Source of the DNA: a virus
DNA: 22,816 nucleotides
Reading direction: 5' to 3' (one strand)
IMG/VR virus record: IMGVR_UViG_3300031980_000006
Span: 1 to 22,816 of that record
Part shown: piece after piece, positions 1 through 22,816 of the stretch
How positions within the stretch are numbered: position 1 is the first letter of the stretch
How the letters are laid out: each line of letters opens with the position of its first letter
Notes under the pieces: generated by a model
Database searches by the model: none
What the model saw: only the letters and a program-made list of their open reading frames with translations
What the model was told of the DNA's origin: nothing
Translations under genes and position numbers: made by a program

Positions 1-1
1 A

Positions 2-181
2 CATAATCCACGTCTTTTCGTACCGTTCTCAGGGACGGGGTCGGAGGTTATCGGCGCGGCGCTTGCCGGTTGGCAGTCCATTGACGCAGTCGAGATAGAC
101 TCAAGTTACGTCTCTATAGCGAAAGAACGCCTATCTTTTTGGTTAGGGATGCCTATTCAACTGGAGCTGTTCTACGAATGA
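2..181 (+). CDS. DNA methyltransferase, C-terminal end only (N4/N6 amino-methyltransferase type)
   Basis: The 5' end lies outside the window and 59 residues remain. They contain PFSGTGSEVIGAAL followed by AVEIDSSYVSIAKERL, which is methyltransferase motif I (the S-adenosylmethionine-binding loop, usually DPFxGSGTT) and the following acidic strand (usually GxExxxxYxxxAxxRL). In the beta class of DNA amino-methyltransferases (N6_N4_Mtase family) these motifs lie at the C-terminus after the DPPY motif and the target-recognition domain, and the protein stops soon after, as seen here. The likely role is modification of phage DNA to evade host restriction, or regulation; the target cannot be read. 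The stop TGA overlaps the next start (ATGA at 178-181), so the two genes are probably translationally coupled. Confidence 0.8.
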   Translation, partial: HNPRLFVPFSGTGSEVIGAALAGWQSIDAVEIDSSYVSIAKERLSFWLGMPIQLELFYE

Positions 182-1091: not shown

Positions 1092-1580
1092 ATGGACGGT
1101 CAAGCGGTAGTGAAGTCGGTGGTCAAGGCGGTGGAAGAGGTCTTACATGAAATCAAGCAAGCCTTACGGGATGAAATTTCACTGGCTACAAATGAAATTT
1201 CAAAGTCACGAAATGAAATTTCACAGGGCGACGATGAAATTTCAAGGCGTGAAATTGAAATTTCATCAGCTGCGATTGAAATTTCATCCGATGAAATTGA
1301 AATTTCAGGGCGCGACAAGCGCGGCAAGGGCTCGCGCTATAGCGGTCGAGAGACTGTTAGACAAGGCGTGGCTGAAATTTCAAGTGAAATTTCATCCGTT
1401 GCAATTGAAATTTCACCTGAAATCGCCGGTCAACCTAAGCCGCTCAACGCTAAGGCTGTCGCGGCTATCCTACGCCGCAATCCTGAGCTGCTCAAAATGC
1501 GCGGCAAGGATTTGGCGGCAAAGTTTGGCGTTACGCCGGTCGTCATCACTAGGGCGAGGAAGTTAGTGGAGCATGGCTAA
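1092..1580 (+). CDS. Heptad-repeat protein with C-terminal helix-turn-helix; gene carries an embedded palindrome array
   Basis: The product has 162 residues from ATG 1092. An alternative TTG start at 1056 overlaps the upstream stop as TTGA and would add 12 residues, so the start is uncertain. The middle is built of seven-residue units, each with Glu-Ile-Ser at the same place (seven in a row, then three more after a basic linker). With the N-terminal VVKAVEEVLHEIKQAL this could form a coiled coil or amphipathic helix. The last 50 residues (KAVAAILRRNPELLKM, then LAAKFGVTPVVITRARKL) look like a helix-turn-helix DNA-binding domain. Every Glu-Ile-Ser is encoded GAA ATT TCA and is preceded by T, so each makes the palindrome TGAAATTTCA. 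I infer a DNA-binding protein that acts on sites inside its own gene, as lambda O does, but no family assignment is possible by eye. Confidence 0.75.
   Translation: MDGQAVVKSVVKAVEEVLHEIKQALRDEISLATNEISKSRNEISQGDDEISRREIEISSAAIEISSDEIEISGRDKRGKGSRYSGRETVRQGVAEISSEISSVAIEISPEIAGQPKPLNAKAVAAILRRNPELLKMRGKDLAAKFGVTPVVITRARKLVEHG
1172..1415. repeat. Array of ten perfect TGAAATTTCA palindromes, seven at an exact 21-bp period
   Basis: Perfect copies of the 10-bp palindrome TGAAATTTCA begin at 1172, 1193, 1214, 1235, 1256, 1277 and 1298 (six consecutive steps of 21 bp), then at 1373, 1385 and 1406 (steps 12 and 21). Degenerate copies TGAAATCA at 1148 and TGAAATCG at 1418 flank the array. The period of 21 bp is two turns of B-DNA, so all seven sites face the same side of the helix. 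The bases between sites vary. All ten copies lie in the same reading frame of the HTH gene. This is typical of iterons, operator clusters or partition sites. It is not a CRISPR array, because the spacers are only 11 bp. Confidence 0.95.
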
Positions 1581-2277
1581 GCGTCTGTTTGAAAGCCCGT
1601 CCCTTTTCCAAGAATTCATGGATAAACCCTTCAATAGGGACGAACAACCGCTCGAATTCTATCTTGAGCGGTTTAAGGCGCTTATCAAAAGCGTCGCCAA
1701 TCAATACTTGGATTTGGCTGAGAAGGCGGCTTATAGCTTTGAAGATTTGACGCAGATCGGTTACGAGACCCTTCAAAGGGCTTATTGGCGGTTCGATCCC
1801 GATCGAAAACGCCGCAACCGGGCGAGCGGCTCGATCGGGCATTTCTTCTCATATGTGAAACAATCAATCATACGCTCGATTGAACGGGAGGTGTTTGCAG
1901 CCGTCGGGTTGCCTAGTAGCTACCGAGCGAACCGCTCACCTGAAATCATCCCGATCGCTCAGATGAGCCTTGAGCGGCTCGATGATGACGGCTTTATCCC
2001 CGCCCAGTTGATTGACAATACATCGTTAGAAAATGAGATAATTAAACTAGAAACAAACCAAGAGCGACTTGCAATCATCCGCGAGAACCTGTACACTCTA
2101 AACAACGCTGAGCGGTTCATCGTCGAGAGCATGATGCGGGGGATATCGCTTGAGGAGATCGAGAGCGAATTCCCAGACGGGCAAGCCGAGACCGTCAAAG
2201 CCGTGTTCAGACGAGCGGTCGCCAAACTGAGAAGAACAACCCGAAAGAAAGGTCGAGACAATGCTGATCTCAAATGA
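1573..2277 (+). CDS. Phage-encoded sigma-70 family RNA polymerase sigma factor
   Basis: This 234-residue protein has the sigma-70 layout. A region 2-like segment at about residues 55-105 carries FEDLTQIGYETLQRA, RFDP and HFFSYVKQSIIRSIERE, matching the usual core-polymerase-binding and -10-recognition helices (DLxQxGxxGLxxAxxxFDP, then FxxYAxxxIRxxIxR). A region 4-like helix-turn-helix follows at about 176-225 (LNNAERFIVESMMRGISLEEIE, then AVFRRAVAKLRR). It has no region 1.1 and a short linker, so it is a small alternative-type factor. It should redirect host RNA polymerase to phage promoters. The start ATG 1573 overlaps the preceding gene by eight bases, with AGGAAG ten bases upstream. Its position just before a second sigma-like gene and the terminase genes fits late-gene control. 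Confidence 0.85.
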   Translation: MAKRLFESPSLFQEFMDKPFNRDEQPLEFYLERFKALIKSVANQYLDLAEKAAYSFEDLTQIGYETLQRAYWRFDPDRKRRNRASGSIGHFFSYVKQSIIRSIEREVFAAVGLPSSYRANRSPEIIPIAQMSLERLDDDGFIPAQLIDNTSLENEIIKLETNQERLAIIRENLYTLNNAERFIVESMMRGISLEEIESEFPDGQAETVKAVFRRAVAKLRRTTRKKGRDNADLK

Positions 2278-2998
2278 GCGCTTCAACGCGCGCTACAACC
2301 CTCGTGATGGTAAAACCTCACCTATCGCCGACCTCGAATTCAAGTGCATTCAATCGGCGGCACGGAACTCGTACGGCGACCCCGATCTTTTTGAAGACCT
2401 GCTACAGACTGCATACGAAACCGTGCTGGTCTGCGCTAAGCGGTTCGATCCGTCTAAAGCGGGCGGCGATACCTATCGGCATTTCTTTAACTACACCTCC
2501 GCCGCCATTGACCATAACGTCCGCGACACGGCGATCCGATTCAGTAGCAATCCTAAGCCGATTCTCAAGCAGACCTCAAAAGAGGGGTTAGCCCAACAGC
2601 CAGCGAAAGTTACCGGCAAGCCCGCCAAACAACGCGGCAAGCGGCGTGTTGAGTTCATATCTGATGAGGTCTTAGACCTGCACCCCGATCCCGCCCCTAC
2701 CCCAGAAGCAGCGCTTGAAATCAAAAATCGTGAAGAGAAAATCAAGGCGCTGCTCAAGATCGCTCTCGACGCCTTAGACGAGCGGCTGCGCTTTCTAGTC
2801 GTGACCCGATTCGGGCTTGAAACGGGCGAGCCTGTTGACGGCGCAGCTTTGATAGCGCGCTATGAAGCTCGTTTCGGCGAAAAGCCGACTAAGTTGAATA
2901 CAATGTACAAAAGCGCTTTTCGCAAGATGCGTGCTGCATTAGAGAGGGTAGGCTATGCCGCGAAGTCGGAGGCGATCGCCGAGCTTTTCGGAATCTGA
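2261..2998 (+). CDS. Second sigma-70-like factor, diverged paralogue of the preceding gene
   Basis: This 245-residue protein shares the region 2 pattern of its upstream neighbour: LFEDLLQTAYETVLVCAKRFDP followed by YRHFFNYTSAAIDHNVRD, with the same E-D-L-x-Q-x-x-Y-E-T, RFDP and HFFxY positions. A basic, Pro- and Lys-rich linker at about residues 105-130 separates it from a region 4-like C-terminus (ALDERLRFLVVTRFGLETG, then KLNTMYKSAFRKMRAAL). The putative helix-turn-helix is longer and less typical than in the first factor, so promoter specificity may differ or the protein may act as a sigma-like accessory factor. The start ATG 2261 has AAAGG eight bases upstream and overlaps the first sigma gene by 17 bases, which suggests translational coupling. 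An ancient tandem duplication is my inference. Confidence 0.72.
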   Translation: MLISNERFNARYNPRDGKTSPIADLEFKCIQSAARNSYGDPDLFEDLLQTAYETVLVCAKRFDPSKAGGDTYRHFFNYTSAAIDHNVRDTAIRFSSNPKPILKQTSKEGLAQQPAKVTGKPAKQRGKRRVEFISDEVLDLHPDPAPTPEAALEIKNREEKIKALLKIALDALDERLRFLVVTRFGLETGEPVDGAALIARYEARFGEKPTKLNTMYKSAFRKMRAALERVGYAAKSEAIAELFGI

Positions 2999-3485
2999 GC
3001 CTGTCGAGATCGTTTTCGAGACCGAACTCGACGTTTCGAAAAAACTGCCCGCTTACGTGAGCCTTGCCGACCGAGCCGTTGATGACGAGACGGCTCGGCG
3101 GCTCGGTGTTTTTCTAGTCAAGGTCACAGAAGGGCTGCCGCTTTCAAACGCGGCAAGCGGGAGCGGACTGCCCGTCAAATTCGTCAAGGGGTTGCTCAAG
3201 GAGAGCGCGCAGTTCAGCGATTTGTATGAGCGCGCCGTGTCCATATTCGTTGAAAAGACGCTCCACGCGCTCAAGACGGATAACAAGGCATGGCAACGTT
3301 TCGCTTGGATTCTAGAGCGTCGTTTTCCTGAGGAATTCGGCAATGGCGCGCTGTTGCGGATATCTGATGAGGATCAGCTGCTGCTCCGTAAGCTGGGCAT
3401 GACCCCGCAAAGCGCATGGCGCGCGTTGATGAGCGCTCTAGAGCGCAAAATGGTTGAACAGGATGAGCAAAGCAGCCAATCCTAA
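2955..3485 (+). CDS. Putative small terminase subunit
   Basis: The product has 176 residues from ATG 2955 and overlaps the second sigma gene by 44 bases in another frame. AGAGAGGGTAGG upstream provides a ribosome binding site, and no usable later start occurs near the N-terminus. A helix-turn-helix-like stretch (LGVFLVKVTEGLPLSNAASGSGLPVKFV) precedes a helix with Trp-Ala-Trp and Phe-Pro-Glu-Glu-Phe-Gly in KAWQRFAWILERRFPEEFG. Small terminase subunits often carry a similar phrase, with W, LERR and P at like places. The location directly upstream of the large terminase gene supports the call. The expected role is recognition of the packaging site and regulation of the large subunit as a ring oligomer. 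Confidence rests on both context and this motif. Confidence 0.7.
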   Translation: MPRSRRRSPSFSESEPVEIVFETELDVSKKLPAYVSLADRAVDDETARRLGVFLVKVTEGLPLSNAASGSGLPVKFVKGLLKESAQFSDLYERAVSIFVEKTLHALKTDNKAWQRFAWILERRFPEEFGNGALLRISDEDQLLLRKLGMTPQSAWRALMSALERKMVEQDEQSSQS

Positions 3486-4797
3486 ACGGACGACGCGGCG
3501 GCAAAAGCAGGCGAAAGCCGACAAAGGGCAAGATTTGCTGAACGCCGCCCTTGCCGAGCTGACGCCTGTCATTACAAGCCGTGTCACGCCCGTCCCCTTC
3601 AAATTCAATATGACGCCGATGCAACGCCTTATCTATGAAAACAAGGCGCGTTTTAGAGTCGTCGCTTGTGGGAGGCGAGCGGGGAAAACCTATCTAGGGG
3701 CGATCGTCGCTATCGAGACCGCCTTGAAAGGCAAGGATGTTTGGTGGGTCGCCCCGACTTATGAGATCGGATTGATAGGCTTGCACACTATCAAGCGCTT
3801 AGCAGCGCCTGTCGGCTTCACTGAGAATCGCACACGACGCCTGATCCAATTCAGCAAAGGGTTCATACAAGTGAAAAGCGCCGACAAGCCTGACAATCTG
3901 CGAGGAGCAGGGCTTGATTTGGCGATCTTCGATGAGGCTGCCCTTATGCCGCCTGAAATTTGGAATGAAATCCTGCGCCCGACTTTGATGGATAGGCAAG
4001 GGCAAGCGCTGTTCCTCAGCACGCCTAAAGGCTTGAATTGGTTTCATGAGATTTTCAGGAAAGGCTTGGAAGGAGAGACTGACTGGGCTTCTTTCAATTT
4101 CCCGACATCCGCCAATACATTCTTGCCTAAGATTGAAGCTGAAATCGAAGCGGCGAAAGCGGCAATGCCCGACGTGCTGTTCAAACAAGAAATTTTAGCT
4201 GAGTTCATAGATGATGTCGGCGGCGTGTTCAGCGCCGTGCTGGACAACGCGACCTTGTCCCCTGAACCGCCCGTCGCCGGTGCGCTCTATAGCGCAGGCA
4301 TTGACCTCGCTCGCCTTAACGATTACACGGTCGTGTCCATTTTGCGCACGGATGTATCGCCTGCGCGTCAAGTCTTCATTGACCGATTCCATCAAATGGC
4401 ATGGCAAGACCAAATCGTGCGAATCGCTAATACGATTAGCCGTTACAAGCCGCAAACCGTTAGGGTAGACCAAACAGGCGTCGGCGACGCCGTCTTGCAA
4501 TTCGCCCGTTCGCAATGGGCTGCGCATGGCGCGTCGGTAATCGGCGTGACCTTGACTAACGAGGTCAAGACTTCAATCATCCAAAATTTGGCGCTCGCCC
4601 TTGAAAAGGGCAACTTGCTACTGCTGAACGATCCTGTTCAGAAGATTGAATTGGTTTCGTTTGAGATGGAACGGCTTAGCAGCGGCAGGTTTAGATACGG
4701 CGCGCCTTCAAATAAGCATGACGATACCGTGATCGCCCTCGCCCTAGCCGCCCAATCCATCACGTCGCCAAACGACGTATGGTGTGCAGTTTGGTAA
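3463..4797 (+). CDS. terL: Terminase large subunit (DNA packaging ATPase and nuclease)
   Basis: The product has 444 residues from ATG 3463, which I prefer to an in-frame TTG at 3454. The gene overlaps the small subunit gene by 23 bases. The ATPase domain shows a Walker A motif GRRAGKT at residues 70-76 and a Walker B LAIFDEA with the Asp-Glu pair at 157-158, followed by the coupling segment FLSTPKG. The C-terminal RNase H-like nuclease shows Asp 281 in GIDLARLNDYTV, Asp 336 in RVDQTGVGD and Asp 420/421 in HDDTVIALALA, the expected metal-binding acidic residues. All key residues are present, so the protein should be active. It pumps DNA into the prohead through the portal and cuts the concatemer. 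This ends the rightward block, and a hairpin follows the stop. Confidence 0.96.
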   Translation: MSKAANPKRTTRRQKQAKADKGQDLLNAALAELTPVITSRVTPVPFKFNMTPMQRLIYENKARFRVVACGRRAGKTYLGAIVAIETALKGKDVWWVAPTYEIGLIGLHTIKRLAAPVGFTENRTRRLIQFSKGFIQVKSADKPDNLRGAGLDLAIFDEAALMPPEIWNEILRPTLMDRQGQALFLSTPKGLNWFHEIFRKGLEGETDWASFNFPTSANTFLPKIEAEIEAAKAAMPDVLFKQEILAEFIDDVGGVFSAVLDNATLSPEPPVAGALYSAGIDLARLNDYTVVSILRTDVSPARQVFIDRFHQMAWQDQIVRIANTISRYKPQTVRVDQTGVGDAVLQFARSQWAAHGASVIGVTLTNEVKTSIIQNLALALEKGNLLLLNDPVQKIELVSFEMERLSSGRFRYGAPSNKHDDTVIALALAAQSITSPNDVWCAVW

Positions 4798-5404: not shown

Positions 5405-5581
5405 TCAATACAGCCCGATTAGAACAGTTGAGCGCGACAGTCAACGCTAAGCGTGAGCATTGCGATAACCCGCTCAAGCGCTGCCGATCGCCGGCGGGCG
5501 CGATTGGCGGGACTAGCGAAGCCTATCCCCGCTAAGGCGCGTAAGGGCGTTGGCAATTTAGGAGGGAAGCGATAGGCGAGG

Positions 5582-5629
5582 TAATTAGCTAATTAAGGGG
5601 GGTTGACCGAATTTAGGGTATTATATAAC
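5582..5629 (+). promoter_or_regulatory. Promoter-like site with upstream 14-bp palindrome
   Basis: TTGACC (5603-5608) and TATAAC (5624-5629) are separated by 15 bp, shorter than the usual 16-18. A perfect palindrome TAATTAGCTAATTA (5582-5595) lies directly upstream and could be an operator or an AT-rich UP-like element. It would drive the gene at 5862 with a leader of more than 200 bases that contains the large inverted repeat. Confidence 0.35.
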
Positions 5630-5681
5630 TTAGCAGGTTTTGGCGATAGCCCAAAAATGCCGATCAGAGCTAGGGCGGCGG

Positions 5682-5747
5682 ATTTTCAATTTCACTGCAA
5701 ACTCACCATTAAATATTTAATGATGGCTTTGTAGTGAAATTGAAAAT
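5682..5747. repeat. 66-bp imperfect inverted repeat with AT-rich palindromic centre
   Basis: The arms are 33 bp each, centred between 5714 and 5715. The outer 15 bp (ATTTTCAATTTCACT and its complement) match perfectly, then one mismatch, then CAAA, then a partly mismatched stretch, and the centre is the perfect 14-bp palindrome ATTAAATATTTAAT (5708-5721). As DNA it could extrude a cruciform; as RNA it forms a long hairpin without a U-tract, so it is not a simple terminator. Each arm holds TGAAATTGAAA (right arm 5735-5745, complement 5684-5694). The same 11-mer occurs in the palindrome array at 1250-1260 and 1292-1302. This makes it a candidate second binding locus. Confidence 0.85.
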
Positions 5748-19489: not shown

Positions 19490-19693
19490 ATGGACAAGCT
19501 AATGGTGAAGCTAGTCTTAGCGTAGGCGTTGGGCGTAAGCGTATGCTTTTCATTAGTAATGGCTGCAGGGTATTTGTGTTTCGGCTTAGGTCTTAGAGAC
19601 GGGTTTAGCAAAGGCGTGTTTTGGCTTGTCGTGACCGTCATTTTAGGCATTGTTTGGCTTTTGACTACCGATGAAAGGTACTGGAAGGTCTAG
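19490..19693 (+). pseudogene. Small two-helix membrane ORF interrupted by an in-frame amber codon
   Basis: From ATG 19490 (GCGGGGTG upstream) the frame reads MDKLMVKLVLA, then TAG at 19523-19525. It continues without another stop for 55 codons, ALGVSVCFSLVMAAGYLCFG and FWLVVTVILGIVWLLTTDE among them, to a TAG at 19691. The whole would be 67 codons with two strong transmembrane segments and a short charged tail, a holin-like shape. A single C-to-T change from CAG would create the amber. No start with a ribosome binding site exists after the TAG; ATG 19559 cuts the first helix. It is either a recent pseudogene, a gene read through by a suppressor tRNA, or a chance frame. The end overlaps the ThyX ribosome binding site. 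Confidence 0.55.
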
Positions 19694-19697
19694 CGCC

Positions 19698-20480
19698 ATG
19701 TTGATTGAAAACGTTTTGGATCGCGGCTTCGTTGAGCTTCAAAGCGTAACGCCCGCCTTCGATCCTGTCGTTGAGCGAGAGCGCGTCCAGCGCGGGCTGT
19801 TAACATCCGCCGATTTAGCGGTCGTTAACGCGGCTAGGGTAAGTCGGCTAGGGGCGAGCGTGTCAACGGAGTCAGACAAGCGTCTTATTCAATATTTGGC
19901 AAGCCATAAACACACTACACCTTTTGAGCATGTAGTGTTCACTTTTCGTGTCAAAGCGCCAGTAATTGTATGGTGGCAATGGATTCGCCATCGCTGGGCT
20001 TCATACAACCTTCAAAGCGGGAGATATACCGCTTATGAAGAAAACGATTGGTATATCCCTATCGAATGGCGTAAGCAAAGCAAAAGCAACAAGCAAGCCA
20101 GCGCGGGCGTCTTGCCTGAAGATCAGTGTACTATACTCACCGAATCTTTGATAGAATTGTACGAACAAGCCTACACCCTTTACAAGGAGGCTCTTGATAT
20201 GGGCGTTGCGCGAGAGCAAGCGCGTCTTTTCTTACCCGCCTTTGGCGTGTATTACATAGGCTATGTCACAGCTAACTTGTGGTCTCTACTGAACTTCATC
20301 AGGCTGCGCGACTCGGACGAAGCGCAGGCTGAAATACGGCAATACGCCGTCGCTATCGGGTCGTTAATCAATCGCGTTGCTCCGGTGAGTTACGCGGCAT
20401 GGCTTGAGCGCGGCATGTCTATTGCCGGTAACGACGGTATACCTAAACAGATGCAATCGGATTTGGCACACGGGGAGTGA
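19698..20480 (+). CDS. thyX: Flavin-dependent thymidylate synthase ThyX
   Basis: The product has 260 residues from ATG 19698, with GGAAGG nine bases upstream; an ATG at 19671 has no ribosome binding site. The family signature RHRxxSxNxxSxRY is complete as RHRWASYNLQSGRY at residues 97-110. Other ThyX features are the early helix KHTTPFEHVVFTFRVKAP and the C-terminal LFLPAFGVYYIGYVTANLWS with the FAD- and dUMP-binding helices. ThyX makes dTMP from dUMP with methylene-tetrahydrofolate, using NAD(P)H and FAD, and it is common in phages as a nucleotide supply gene. Its place in the tail module, away from any other replication gene in the window, suggests insertion together with the metallophosphoesterase. 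Confidence 0.95.
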   Translation: MLIENVLDRGFVELQSVTPAFDPVVERERVQRGLLTSADLAVVNAARVSRLGASVSTESDKRLIQYLASHKHTTPFEHVVFTFRVKAPVIVWWQWIRHRWASYNLQSGRYTAYEENDWYIPIEWRKQSKSNKQASAGVLPEDQCTILTESLIELYEQAYTLYKEALDMGVAREQARLFLPAFGVYYIGYVTANLWSLLNFIRLRDSDEAQAEIRQYAVAIGSLINRVAPVSYAAWLERGMSIAGNDGIPKQMQSDLAHGE

Positions 20481-20929: not shown

Positions 20930-22816
20930 AGCCTACTAGCGCGCTCACAACAGCGCAACGCGACTCGCTCAAGACGGCTAGGGCGACCGCTTGGTTTTAT
21001 GCGCGCCCAGATACGGTCGTCGCCACTCTTACCGTGACAAGCGCCCTGAACACGCTAGAGGGGCGCGTCAATGTGAGCGGATCGCTCTCAAACGTGACAG
21101 CCGACATGACGGCTAAGGTCAAGCGCGGATCGAACCTTGTCGGTTACTACCGAATCCGCAAAGTGGGCGGCTCTGAACTCTACTTAGGCGCGGATGTAAA
21201 TGACAAGGGCTTGTTTCAATTCGGGCAAGCGCTGCCACCAATCGCCGCTAACGACACGATTGAAGTCTTAAACCGCTACGATTTGACGGCAAAAATCCCG
21301 CGCATTGATACGGGCGCGTCCGTCATTTATGAGGACTACGATATCGCCTATAGCGACCAAAACACGACGCCTGCACCTTACGGGCGCATTTGGATTCGCG
21401 AGGCGGCAAGCGGCGCTTGGAGTACGCATTACGGAGGCTTCACAAGCGGCTCGACAATAGACCTTGACATTCGCGTCGAGGCGTACTCTTTTGTGAGCGG
21501 CGCTTACAGCTTCAACTTCACGTTTCCATCATCGTGGGTTGTGCTATCCTCAAACACGACCGCGCTTGTCGCCGAGCGGCAAGTCCGCGTGCCAATCGGC
21601 GCGTTCAGCTTCACTTGCACCATCACACAAAACGCCAAAACGCGCACTTTGACGCGCTACGTCGTGGTTGACGACCGCGCCAATCCTACGCTTTTCAAGG
21701 AGCTGCTTGATTTCAACGCCGAATTCACAACAGAAGGCGTCCGCTTATCGGGACGCCTGCGCGCTCAAGACGCGCAGACCTATCTCAGCGGTATCTCTCA
21801 AGGCGCGTTCAGCCTGATCGCTCTCGACACTGAACAAAATGCCGCATTTTCGAGGGTTTACGCGGGATTTTTTGACGGGGGTAGTTATACCTCACGAGAG
21901 GCGGAAAGGGCGGCTCAAATCGCCATTTTTGACGTATCCGAAACGCTCAGGCGAGTCTATTGCGCCTCTCAACTTTTCGAGCGCAAATCAACAGTTGATA
22001 CATGGCAAAAATTGCCTCAGGCGCTCAGTCATCCCGCTTTTGCCGTCTATTGGCTTTTGGATTGGCGCGTCGCCAATTACCATCGCCTGTTCAATTTTGA
22101 AGTACACGGAACGGCAGCGGATTACAAGGCGATTGCATTGAAGTCGGATCGCGGCTCGGTTTGGCAGGCGATTCAAGCCATGACAGGTCGCTTGCCGACT
22201 GCGATTTTATGCGCAAGCGCGGACGGGCTTCGCATTGATGTACGCCCTGAACTGTTGAGCGCAACAGCGCGCAACGCAATCATCACACGCCACACGATCA
22301 CGGAAGATGATGTTTCAAGCCTGAACATATCGGTAGCGCAACGCGCGCGTTACCGGCGCGTTAGGCTTGCTGCCTTTTTGCCCGTCGCGGCGGATGATGA
22401 AAAGCCGATTCCGATTAGATCGGGCGCGACGGCGATCAACGGCGAGCAAGAGCAGGACATAGACGGCTTGTTAGCGTTCAGTCAAGCCGAGCTGAATCGC
22501 GTTGCGGGCGACACGCTTGCCGCGCTCAACGCGCCGTATGAGCGGATTCAATATGAGCTGATCGGCGCGCTCGGCATGGCTTTCATGCCGTATCACCAAC
22601 AATTCGTAGGCAACAACATCGCGCAAGCCTATCACGAGCTTTTCAGCGCGGCTTTCACGCAACGCTGCATTCCGGTAAGCCTCAGCTTGACTGTAGAGGC
22701 AGGCGGCGTTGCGCGGACGAGCTTGACTGTCAAGCCCGAAACGGACGGCGCGGACGGCGTCACCTTGCCGATACCTATTGAGGGCGAACACAGCATCGTC
22801 GAGCCGTTTGAATTAC
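20926..22816 (+). CDS. Large distal tail protein, baseplate hub-like, 3' end outside the window
   Basis: The frame opens at ATG 20926, overlapping the preceding stop, and stays open for 630 codons to the window end. The N-terminal 250 residues are Thr/Ser/Val-rich beta structure, perhaps Ig-like (LTVTSALNTLEGRVNVSGS, RTLTRYVVVDDRANPTL). From about residue 330 it has DVSETLRRVYCASQLFER, GSVWQAIQAMTGRLPTAIL, ADGLRIDVRPELLS and ITEDDVSSLNISVAQRARY. This order (a helix before a small domain, 'D-G-x-x-x-I-x-P', then a line with S-L-N-I-S) resembles tail hub and tip proteins of the gp27/Tal group. I infer a hub or tip protein for host attachment. The missing C-terminus could hold a lysin or fibre domain. 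Confidence 0.75.
   Translation, partial: MKPTSALTTAQRDSLKTARATAWFYARPDTVVATLTVTSALNTLEGRVNVSGSLSNVTADMTAKVKRGSNLVGYYRIRKVGGSELYLGADVNDKGLFQFGQALPPIAANDTIEVLNRYDLTAKIPRIDTGASVIYEDYDIAYSDQNTTPAPYGRIWIREAASGAWSTHYGGFTSGSTIDLDIRVEAYSFVSGAYSFNFTFPSSWVVLSSNTTALVAERQVRVPIGAFSFTCTITQNAKTRTLTRYVVVDDRANPTLFKELLDFNAEFTTEGVRLSGRLRAQDAQTYLSGISQGAFSLIALDTEQNAAFSRVYAGFFDGGSYTSREAERAAQIAIFDVSETLRRVYCASQLFERKSTVDTWQKLPQALSHPAFAVYWLLDWRVANYHRLFNFEVHGTAADYKAIALKSDRGSVWQAIQAMTGRLPTAILCASADGLRIDVRPELLSATARNAIITRHTITEDDVSSLNISVAQRARYRRVRLAAFLPVAADDEKPIPIRSGATAINGEQEQDIDGLLAFSQAELNRVAGDTLAALNAPYERIQYELIGALGMAFMPYHQQFVGNNIAQAYHELFSAAFTQRCIPVSLSLTVEAGGVARTSLTVKPETDGADGVTLPIPIEGEHSIVEPFEL

Follow-up and report, generated by a model that had tools for sequence, protein, structure and literature searches.

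An array of exact palindromes inside the gene of a predicted helix-turn-helix protein: a candidate DNA recognition site in an uncultured phage lineage

In-gene recognition sites in P1 and lambda and a candidate in an uncultured phage lineage

In phages P1 and lambda, packaging and replication sites are hidden inside genes. The pac site of P1 lies in pacA, where four TGATCA elements are followed by central cleavage sites and then by more TGATCA/G elements (PMC10028697); direct sequence comparison places the two clusters 96 bp apart, start to start, with a spacing of 12/11 bp in the right cluster. With the aim of weakening pacase binding and lowering the packaging of P1 DNA, these repeats were altered by synonymous changes (PMC10028697). 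The lambda origin comprises four 18-bp iterons in gene O, whose starts lie 20, 24 and 23 bp apart and in different frames, with an adjoining AT-rich tract. Compared to the four iterons of lambda, Stx phages possess six, together with 13 extra residues in O, a variation that occurs by in-frame insertion (PMC7466680).

The window, i.e. the whole stretch of DNA analyzed here, is a 22,816-base IMG/VR virus record in which the ten-base palindrome TGAAATTTCA is present in 10 exact copies at 1172-1415 and absent elsewhere. The copies start at 1172, 1193, 1214, 1235, 1256, 1277, 1298, 1373, 1385 and 1406, with six intervals of 21 bp followed by intervals of 75, 12 and 21 bp, which bears out the ten exact sites and seven 21-bp intervals described in the first-pass annotation and adds the intervals of 75 and 12 bp. 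All ten are in the same reading frame of the gene at 1092-1580 and are read as xEIS. One of the three frames of TGAAATTTCA contains a TGA stop, so that only intervals divisible by three are allowed while the present frame is in use. Copies with one mismatch were found nowhere in the window. In 100 shuffled controls, for which sites with zero or one mismatch were counted, the mean was 0.86 sites and ten was never reached. Apart from the nested 8-mer GAAATTTC, no other clustered palindromic 8-, 10- or 12-mers were detected in the window and its two relatives.

These relatives, two viral contigs of approximately 43 kb (A, IMGVR_UViG_3300031878_000002, and B, IMGVR_UViG_3300002920_000041), were obtained in a search with the large terminase (TerL) and were recovered again by an independent search with a spaced palindrome pair, which also returned two viral contigs with a single TGAAATTTCA pair at 21 bp (L010 and L011) and no array. 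The window, A and B contain 10, 7 and 14 copies, respectively, and all 31 are exact, in a sample of three genomes from one lineage in which the copies within one array are not independent. Their layout is the same, with a first block of 21-bp period (7, 5 and 9 copies in the window, A and B), a start-to-start gap that measures 75 bp in each phage, and a second block (3, 2 and 5 copies) that opens with a 12-bp pair in all three phages, so that the copy number varies on both sides of a constant gap. The array-gene homologues in A and B are 65 to 76% identical. An assembly artefact was rejected in view of the distinct IMG/VR datasets, the differing copy numbers and the diverged spacers. Scans of viral contigs with the array protein, the helix-turn-helix (HTH) domain, TerL and the portal protein yielded A and B as the only array-bearing relatives, and none of 80 more distant phages found with a broad TerL profile had a comparable palindrome array or an array-gene homologue. 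The contig of B carries a 77-base direct terminal repeat, which is typical of circular assemblies. Similar leftward genes are located at both contig ends of A (L022:175-726 and L024:2999-3367), overlapping the circularisation region of B, and these ends may hold tandem paralogues. No Rfam families were detected in the window and no tRNA in A and B.

Similar to P1 pac, the array consists of two in-gene clusters of a short palindromic motif around a centre of fixed length, with a 12-bp step within one cluster and terminase genes close by. Methylation is known in P1 (PMC10028697), and a methyltransferase gene is situated near the array. In contrast to the 6-bp motif of P1 pac, however, the array motif is 10 bp long and occurs in more copies and in variable number, its first block has a 21-bp period, and the array gene, unlike pacA, is not a recognised terminase subunit. 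With the lambda origin the array has in common in-gene repeats about two helical turns apart whose number differs between relatives by in-frame insertion, but its exact 10-mers in one frame, lacking an AT-rich tract, differ from the imperfect 18-mers of lambda, which are spaced by 20-24 bp in mixed frames and accompanied by such a tract. Lambda O had initially been considered the nearest precedent; P1 pac in pacA, which was overlooked, is equally close.

Selection on the palindrome as DNA

When five position-matched copies were compared among the three phages, none of 50 columns in the palindromes was variable compared to 61 of 100 in the spacers, and at third codon positions the respective numbers were 0 of 20 and 21 of 30; Fisher tests on these variable columns treat the columns as independent and are in this respect generous. 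In neighbouring genes synonymous differences mostly affect 0.3-0.5 of the sites, with the exception of TerL in the comparison of the window with A (0.07). In addition, at residue-invariant positions of eight other shared genes all three phages agreed in the codon at 44 of 95 positions for GAA, 35 of 58 for ATT and 8 of 21 for TCA, and with these rates the chance that the EIS codons at the five shared copies stay identical is approximately 1e-5. Codon usage elsewhere in these phages (GAA 45% of Glu, ATT 39% of Ile, TCA 14% of Ser) gives a product over all copies that corresponds to a probability below ~1e-5, which was not relied upon because the copies arise by duplication.

The codon preceding GAA ends in T in 10 of 10 copies of the window, although the residue changes (D, N, N, D, I, I, I, A, S, I), in agreement with the first-pass annotation. 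Its further claim that Ser is always TCA and Ile always ATT applies inside the EIS triplets, whereas the serines of the spacers vary in codon and an ATC codon for Ile follows the array. The two homologues were also searched for EIS heptads written in other codons, and none were found.

Moreover, TGAAATTTCA is equally exact in the predicted helix of block 1 and in the predicted disordered linker of block 2, where the spacings are 12, 18 and 21 bp and the 12- and 18-bp steps break the heptad. The preservation of exact copies in the linker at non-heptad spacing thus indicates that the palindrome is selected without dependence on the heptad. The proposed locking of DNA and protein repeats holds for block 1 with its predicted continuous helix and does not extend to block 2. 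The palindrome positions cluster on the 10.5-bp helix beyond random in-frame spacings (p 0.001, 0.006 and 0.00005), but the heptad predicts the same for block 1, so that the 21-bp period alone cannot separate DNA from protein constraint and may reflect DNA, protein or both. In summary, the exactness of every copy, the divergence of spacers and neighbouring genes and the persistence of the linker copies provide good support for selection at the DNA level, as had been proposed from the window alone. Judged from these sequence comparisons, the repeats very probably form an array of DNA recognition sites within protein-coding sequence.

The array gene and its neighbourhood

The array gene starts at the ATG at 1092 or at an upstream TTG, and its stop overlaps the next gene (Table 1). 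The AlphaFold model built from three sequences shows one helix at residues 3-66, a stretch predicted with low confidence (68-114) and, at the C-terminus, a helical domain; with a pTM of 0.29, the arrangement of the domains is not informative. When the C-terminal domain was modelled alone, a confident fold of 3-4 helices was obtained (pLDDT 87), whose PDB neighbours were overwhelmingly HTH DNA-binding domains, each match being weak with no E-value <0.4. These results support the C-terminal HTH that had been recognized in the translation. No convincing homologue of the C-terminal region was found in phage and plasmid collections. The array product also matched PHROG 57 (TerS) weakly over the helix (E 0.003 to 0.02), which is likely a coiled-coil effect.

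Table 1. Positions of the array, its gene and neighbouring features (window coordinates unless A or B is given)
Feature	Position	Strand	Basis or remark
DNA methyltransferase gene, 3' end	1..181	+	Pfam N6_N4_Mtase above cut-off; PHROG 67 E 8e-20
Array gene; predicted parts: long helix (N-terminal), disordered linker, HTH (C-terminal)	1092..1580	+	ORF, homologues, AlphaFold model
Block 1: seven TGAAATTTCA, 21-bp period, inside predicted helix	1172..1307	+	relative A 5 copies, B 9
Inter-block spacer	1308..1372	.	65 bp, GC 0.66; constant length in three phages, sequence strongly diverged
Block 2: three TGAAATTTCA at 12 and 21 bp, inside predicted disordered linker	1373..1415	+	relative A 2 copies, B 5
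Predicted C-terminal HTH domain	1428..1577	+	best conserved protein part, 84-90% identity
Sigma-70-like gene 1, overlaps array-gene stop	1573..2277	+	Pfam Sigma70_r2 E 2e-4, below cut-off; PHROG 351 E 1.6e-9
Sigma-70-like gene 2	2261..2998	+	Pfam Sigma70_r2 E 6e-4, below cut-off; PHROG 351 E 1.4e-3
Probable small terminase (TerS)	2955..3485	+	PHROG 4102 E 8e-6; homologue in B 8e-7
Large terminase (TerL)	3466..4797	+	Pfam Terminase_6N/6C above cut-off
~62-bp inverted repeat	5683-5746; A 5443-5506, 21426-21490; B 5595-5659, 21668-21733

The gene order, taken from A, begins with leftward genes and a divergent region at ~5.4 kb, followed in rightward orientation by genes for a primase-like protein, a helicase, PolA, a DNA methyltransferase (complete in A, L022:14940-16004) and a putative membrane protein, the array gene, two sigma-like genes, the probable TerS gene, the TerL gene and structural genes. 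The array lies downstream of the replication genes and of the DNA methyltransferase gene, and upstream of the sigma/TerS/TerL genes. Directly 3' of the array gene, the two sigma-70-like genes form an overlapping tandem pair (1573-2998). A and B each carry, in their two divergent intergenic regions, an imperfect inverted repeat of ~62 bp with an A+T-rich centre, of which the window contains one copy; the repeat has TGAAATTGAAA in common with some array spacers and may be an origin or a divergent promoter or operator. At 19671-20480 the window encodes what we take to be a ThyX-type thymidylate synthase, based on its RHR...S motif.

Candidate functions of the array

On balance, we favour the view that the array is a cis-acting site bound cooperatively by a two-fold symmetric HTH protein, most likely the one that this gene encodes; the process that it would serve is the least certain part. 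That the gene's own product is the binding partner appears somewhat more probable than the opposite, given its predicted HTH domain and the two phage precedents. Each 10-bp palindrome would hold one HTH dimer, the dimers of block 1 would be aligned along one face of the helix, and the two blocks would flank the fixed-length centre. The resulting complex might then tag the phage DNA so that its packaging can begin, similar to P1 pac inside pacA. Packaging, suggested by this analogy, is our tentative choice of process, with replication and operator roles ranking as close rivals. These rankings (packaging, operator, origin, partition and titration), like our confidence in the recognition array and in its binding by an HTH protein, represent judgements rather than computed values. 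As a separate probable TerS gene adjoins that of TerL, the array gene need not encode the packaging recognition subunit, and, with this better TerS candidate, a terminase gene as the carrier of a pac site is not established here. It is also conceivable, though not probable, that one 21-bp unit serves both as a coiled-coil heptad and as a binding site of that same protein, in which case each added unit would extend both the coil of the protein and its DNA target.

Alternatively, the HTH product could bind within its own gene as an operator or roadblock and repress or time the transcription of the sigma, terminase and structural genes. Palindromes are the usual targets of HTH dimers, there is an overlap between the array gene and the sigma-like gene that follows it, and the presence of TGAAATTGAAA in the 62-bp inverted repeats of both divergent intergenic regions as well as in array spacers is consistent with such a role. 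However, 7-14 sites within a coding region far exceed what an operator needs, and no exact TGAAATTTCA was found near the promoter regions, and we consider this explanation doubtful.

Rather doubtful, too, is an origin of the lambda type, in which the palindromes would be iterons in the gene of their own initiator, whose product opens the DNA and loads replication proteins. This reading, the one given in the first-pass annotation, agrees with the 21-bp helical phasing of tandem repeats, about two turns apart, in the gene of a predicted DNA-binding protein, with the change of copy number via in-frame insertions, as between lambda and Stx phages, and with the primase-like protein, helicase and PolA encoded upstream of the array. 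In contrast, the array has no A+T-rich flank; the 40-bp windows with the most A+T coincide for the most part with the palindromes, and the GC content of the gap is 66%. A DnaA box is absent near the array, and the product of its gene has no match to initiators among Pfam, PHROG or PDB sequences. Cumulative GC skew, a check proposed together with the origin reading, reaches its minimum not at the array but at ~5 kb, where the divergent intergenic region lies; the skew follows the coding strand and is confounded by transcription direction.

A centromere-like or anchoring array for partition, or the titration of a host DNA-binding protein, is an unlikely explanation overall, with partition or anchoring taken singly appearing improbable and titration slightly more so. 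Tandem repeats are employed by phage parS arrays and by plasmid systems that rely on a single HTH/coiled-coil protein, and the weak fold matches include the HTH domains of KorB and VirB; on the other hand, no integrase, ParA or other lysogeny or partition genes were recognised among the subset of proteins scanned. StbA of plasmid R388, an HTH protein (PMC3098194), and KfrA, a plasmid protein with a long helix (PMC7783346), are reported to be DNA-binding proteins paired with an array of short repeats, and KfrA resembles the array protein in its long helix. The phage RedRock ParB/parS system likewise relies on tandem parS repeats (PMC7157519). In all three systems the arrays lie outside the coding region, and domain order and sequence differ from those of the array gene described here.

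AAATTT-centred palindrome arrays with a 21-bp period, apparently intergenic, were also observed at L014 and L016 (Flavobacterium hydrocarbonoxydans), L015 and L017. The genome of F. hydrocarbonoxydans contains 93 TGAAATTTCA sites versus 10 for a reversed control, and its arrays share the identical 10-mer and the identical 21-bp period with the phage array. However, these copies lie inside longer palindromes, apparently between genes, on the chromosome of another phylum, and a spaced TGAAATTTCA pair was found in only 1 of 296 sampled genomes of that phylum. A link to these Bacteroidota arrays, which are probably unrelated, was set aside.

The weakest alternative, that protein-level selection maintains only the EIS heptads and their codons are shared through recent tandem duplication, is already contradicted and highly improbable. 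In its favour, the predicted helix includes block 1, and this block is similar to designed coiled coils. Against it, the synonymous palindrome bases are invariant next to strongly diverged spacers, GAA is preceded by T whichever of nine residues is encoded there, and the palindrome is kept in the linker at non-heptad spacing.

The array offers a natural case in which DNA-level and protein-level constraint on the same bases can be told apart, with a 10-bp site that remains exact despite strong divergence around it and in parts of the protein predicted to be helical as well as disordered. Should the array be bound by the protein that its gene encodes, one slippage event would alter the number of sites and the length of the protein jointly, and the co-evolution of a DNA-binding protein with its array would become directly testable. 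For this uncultured phage lineage, the array provides a defined candidate for a packaging, replication or switch site.
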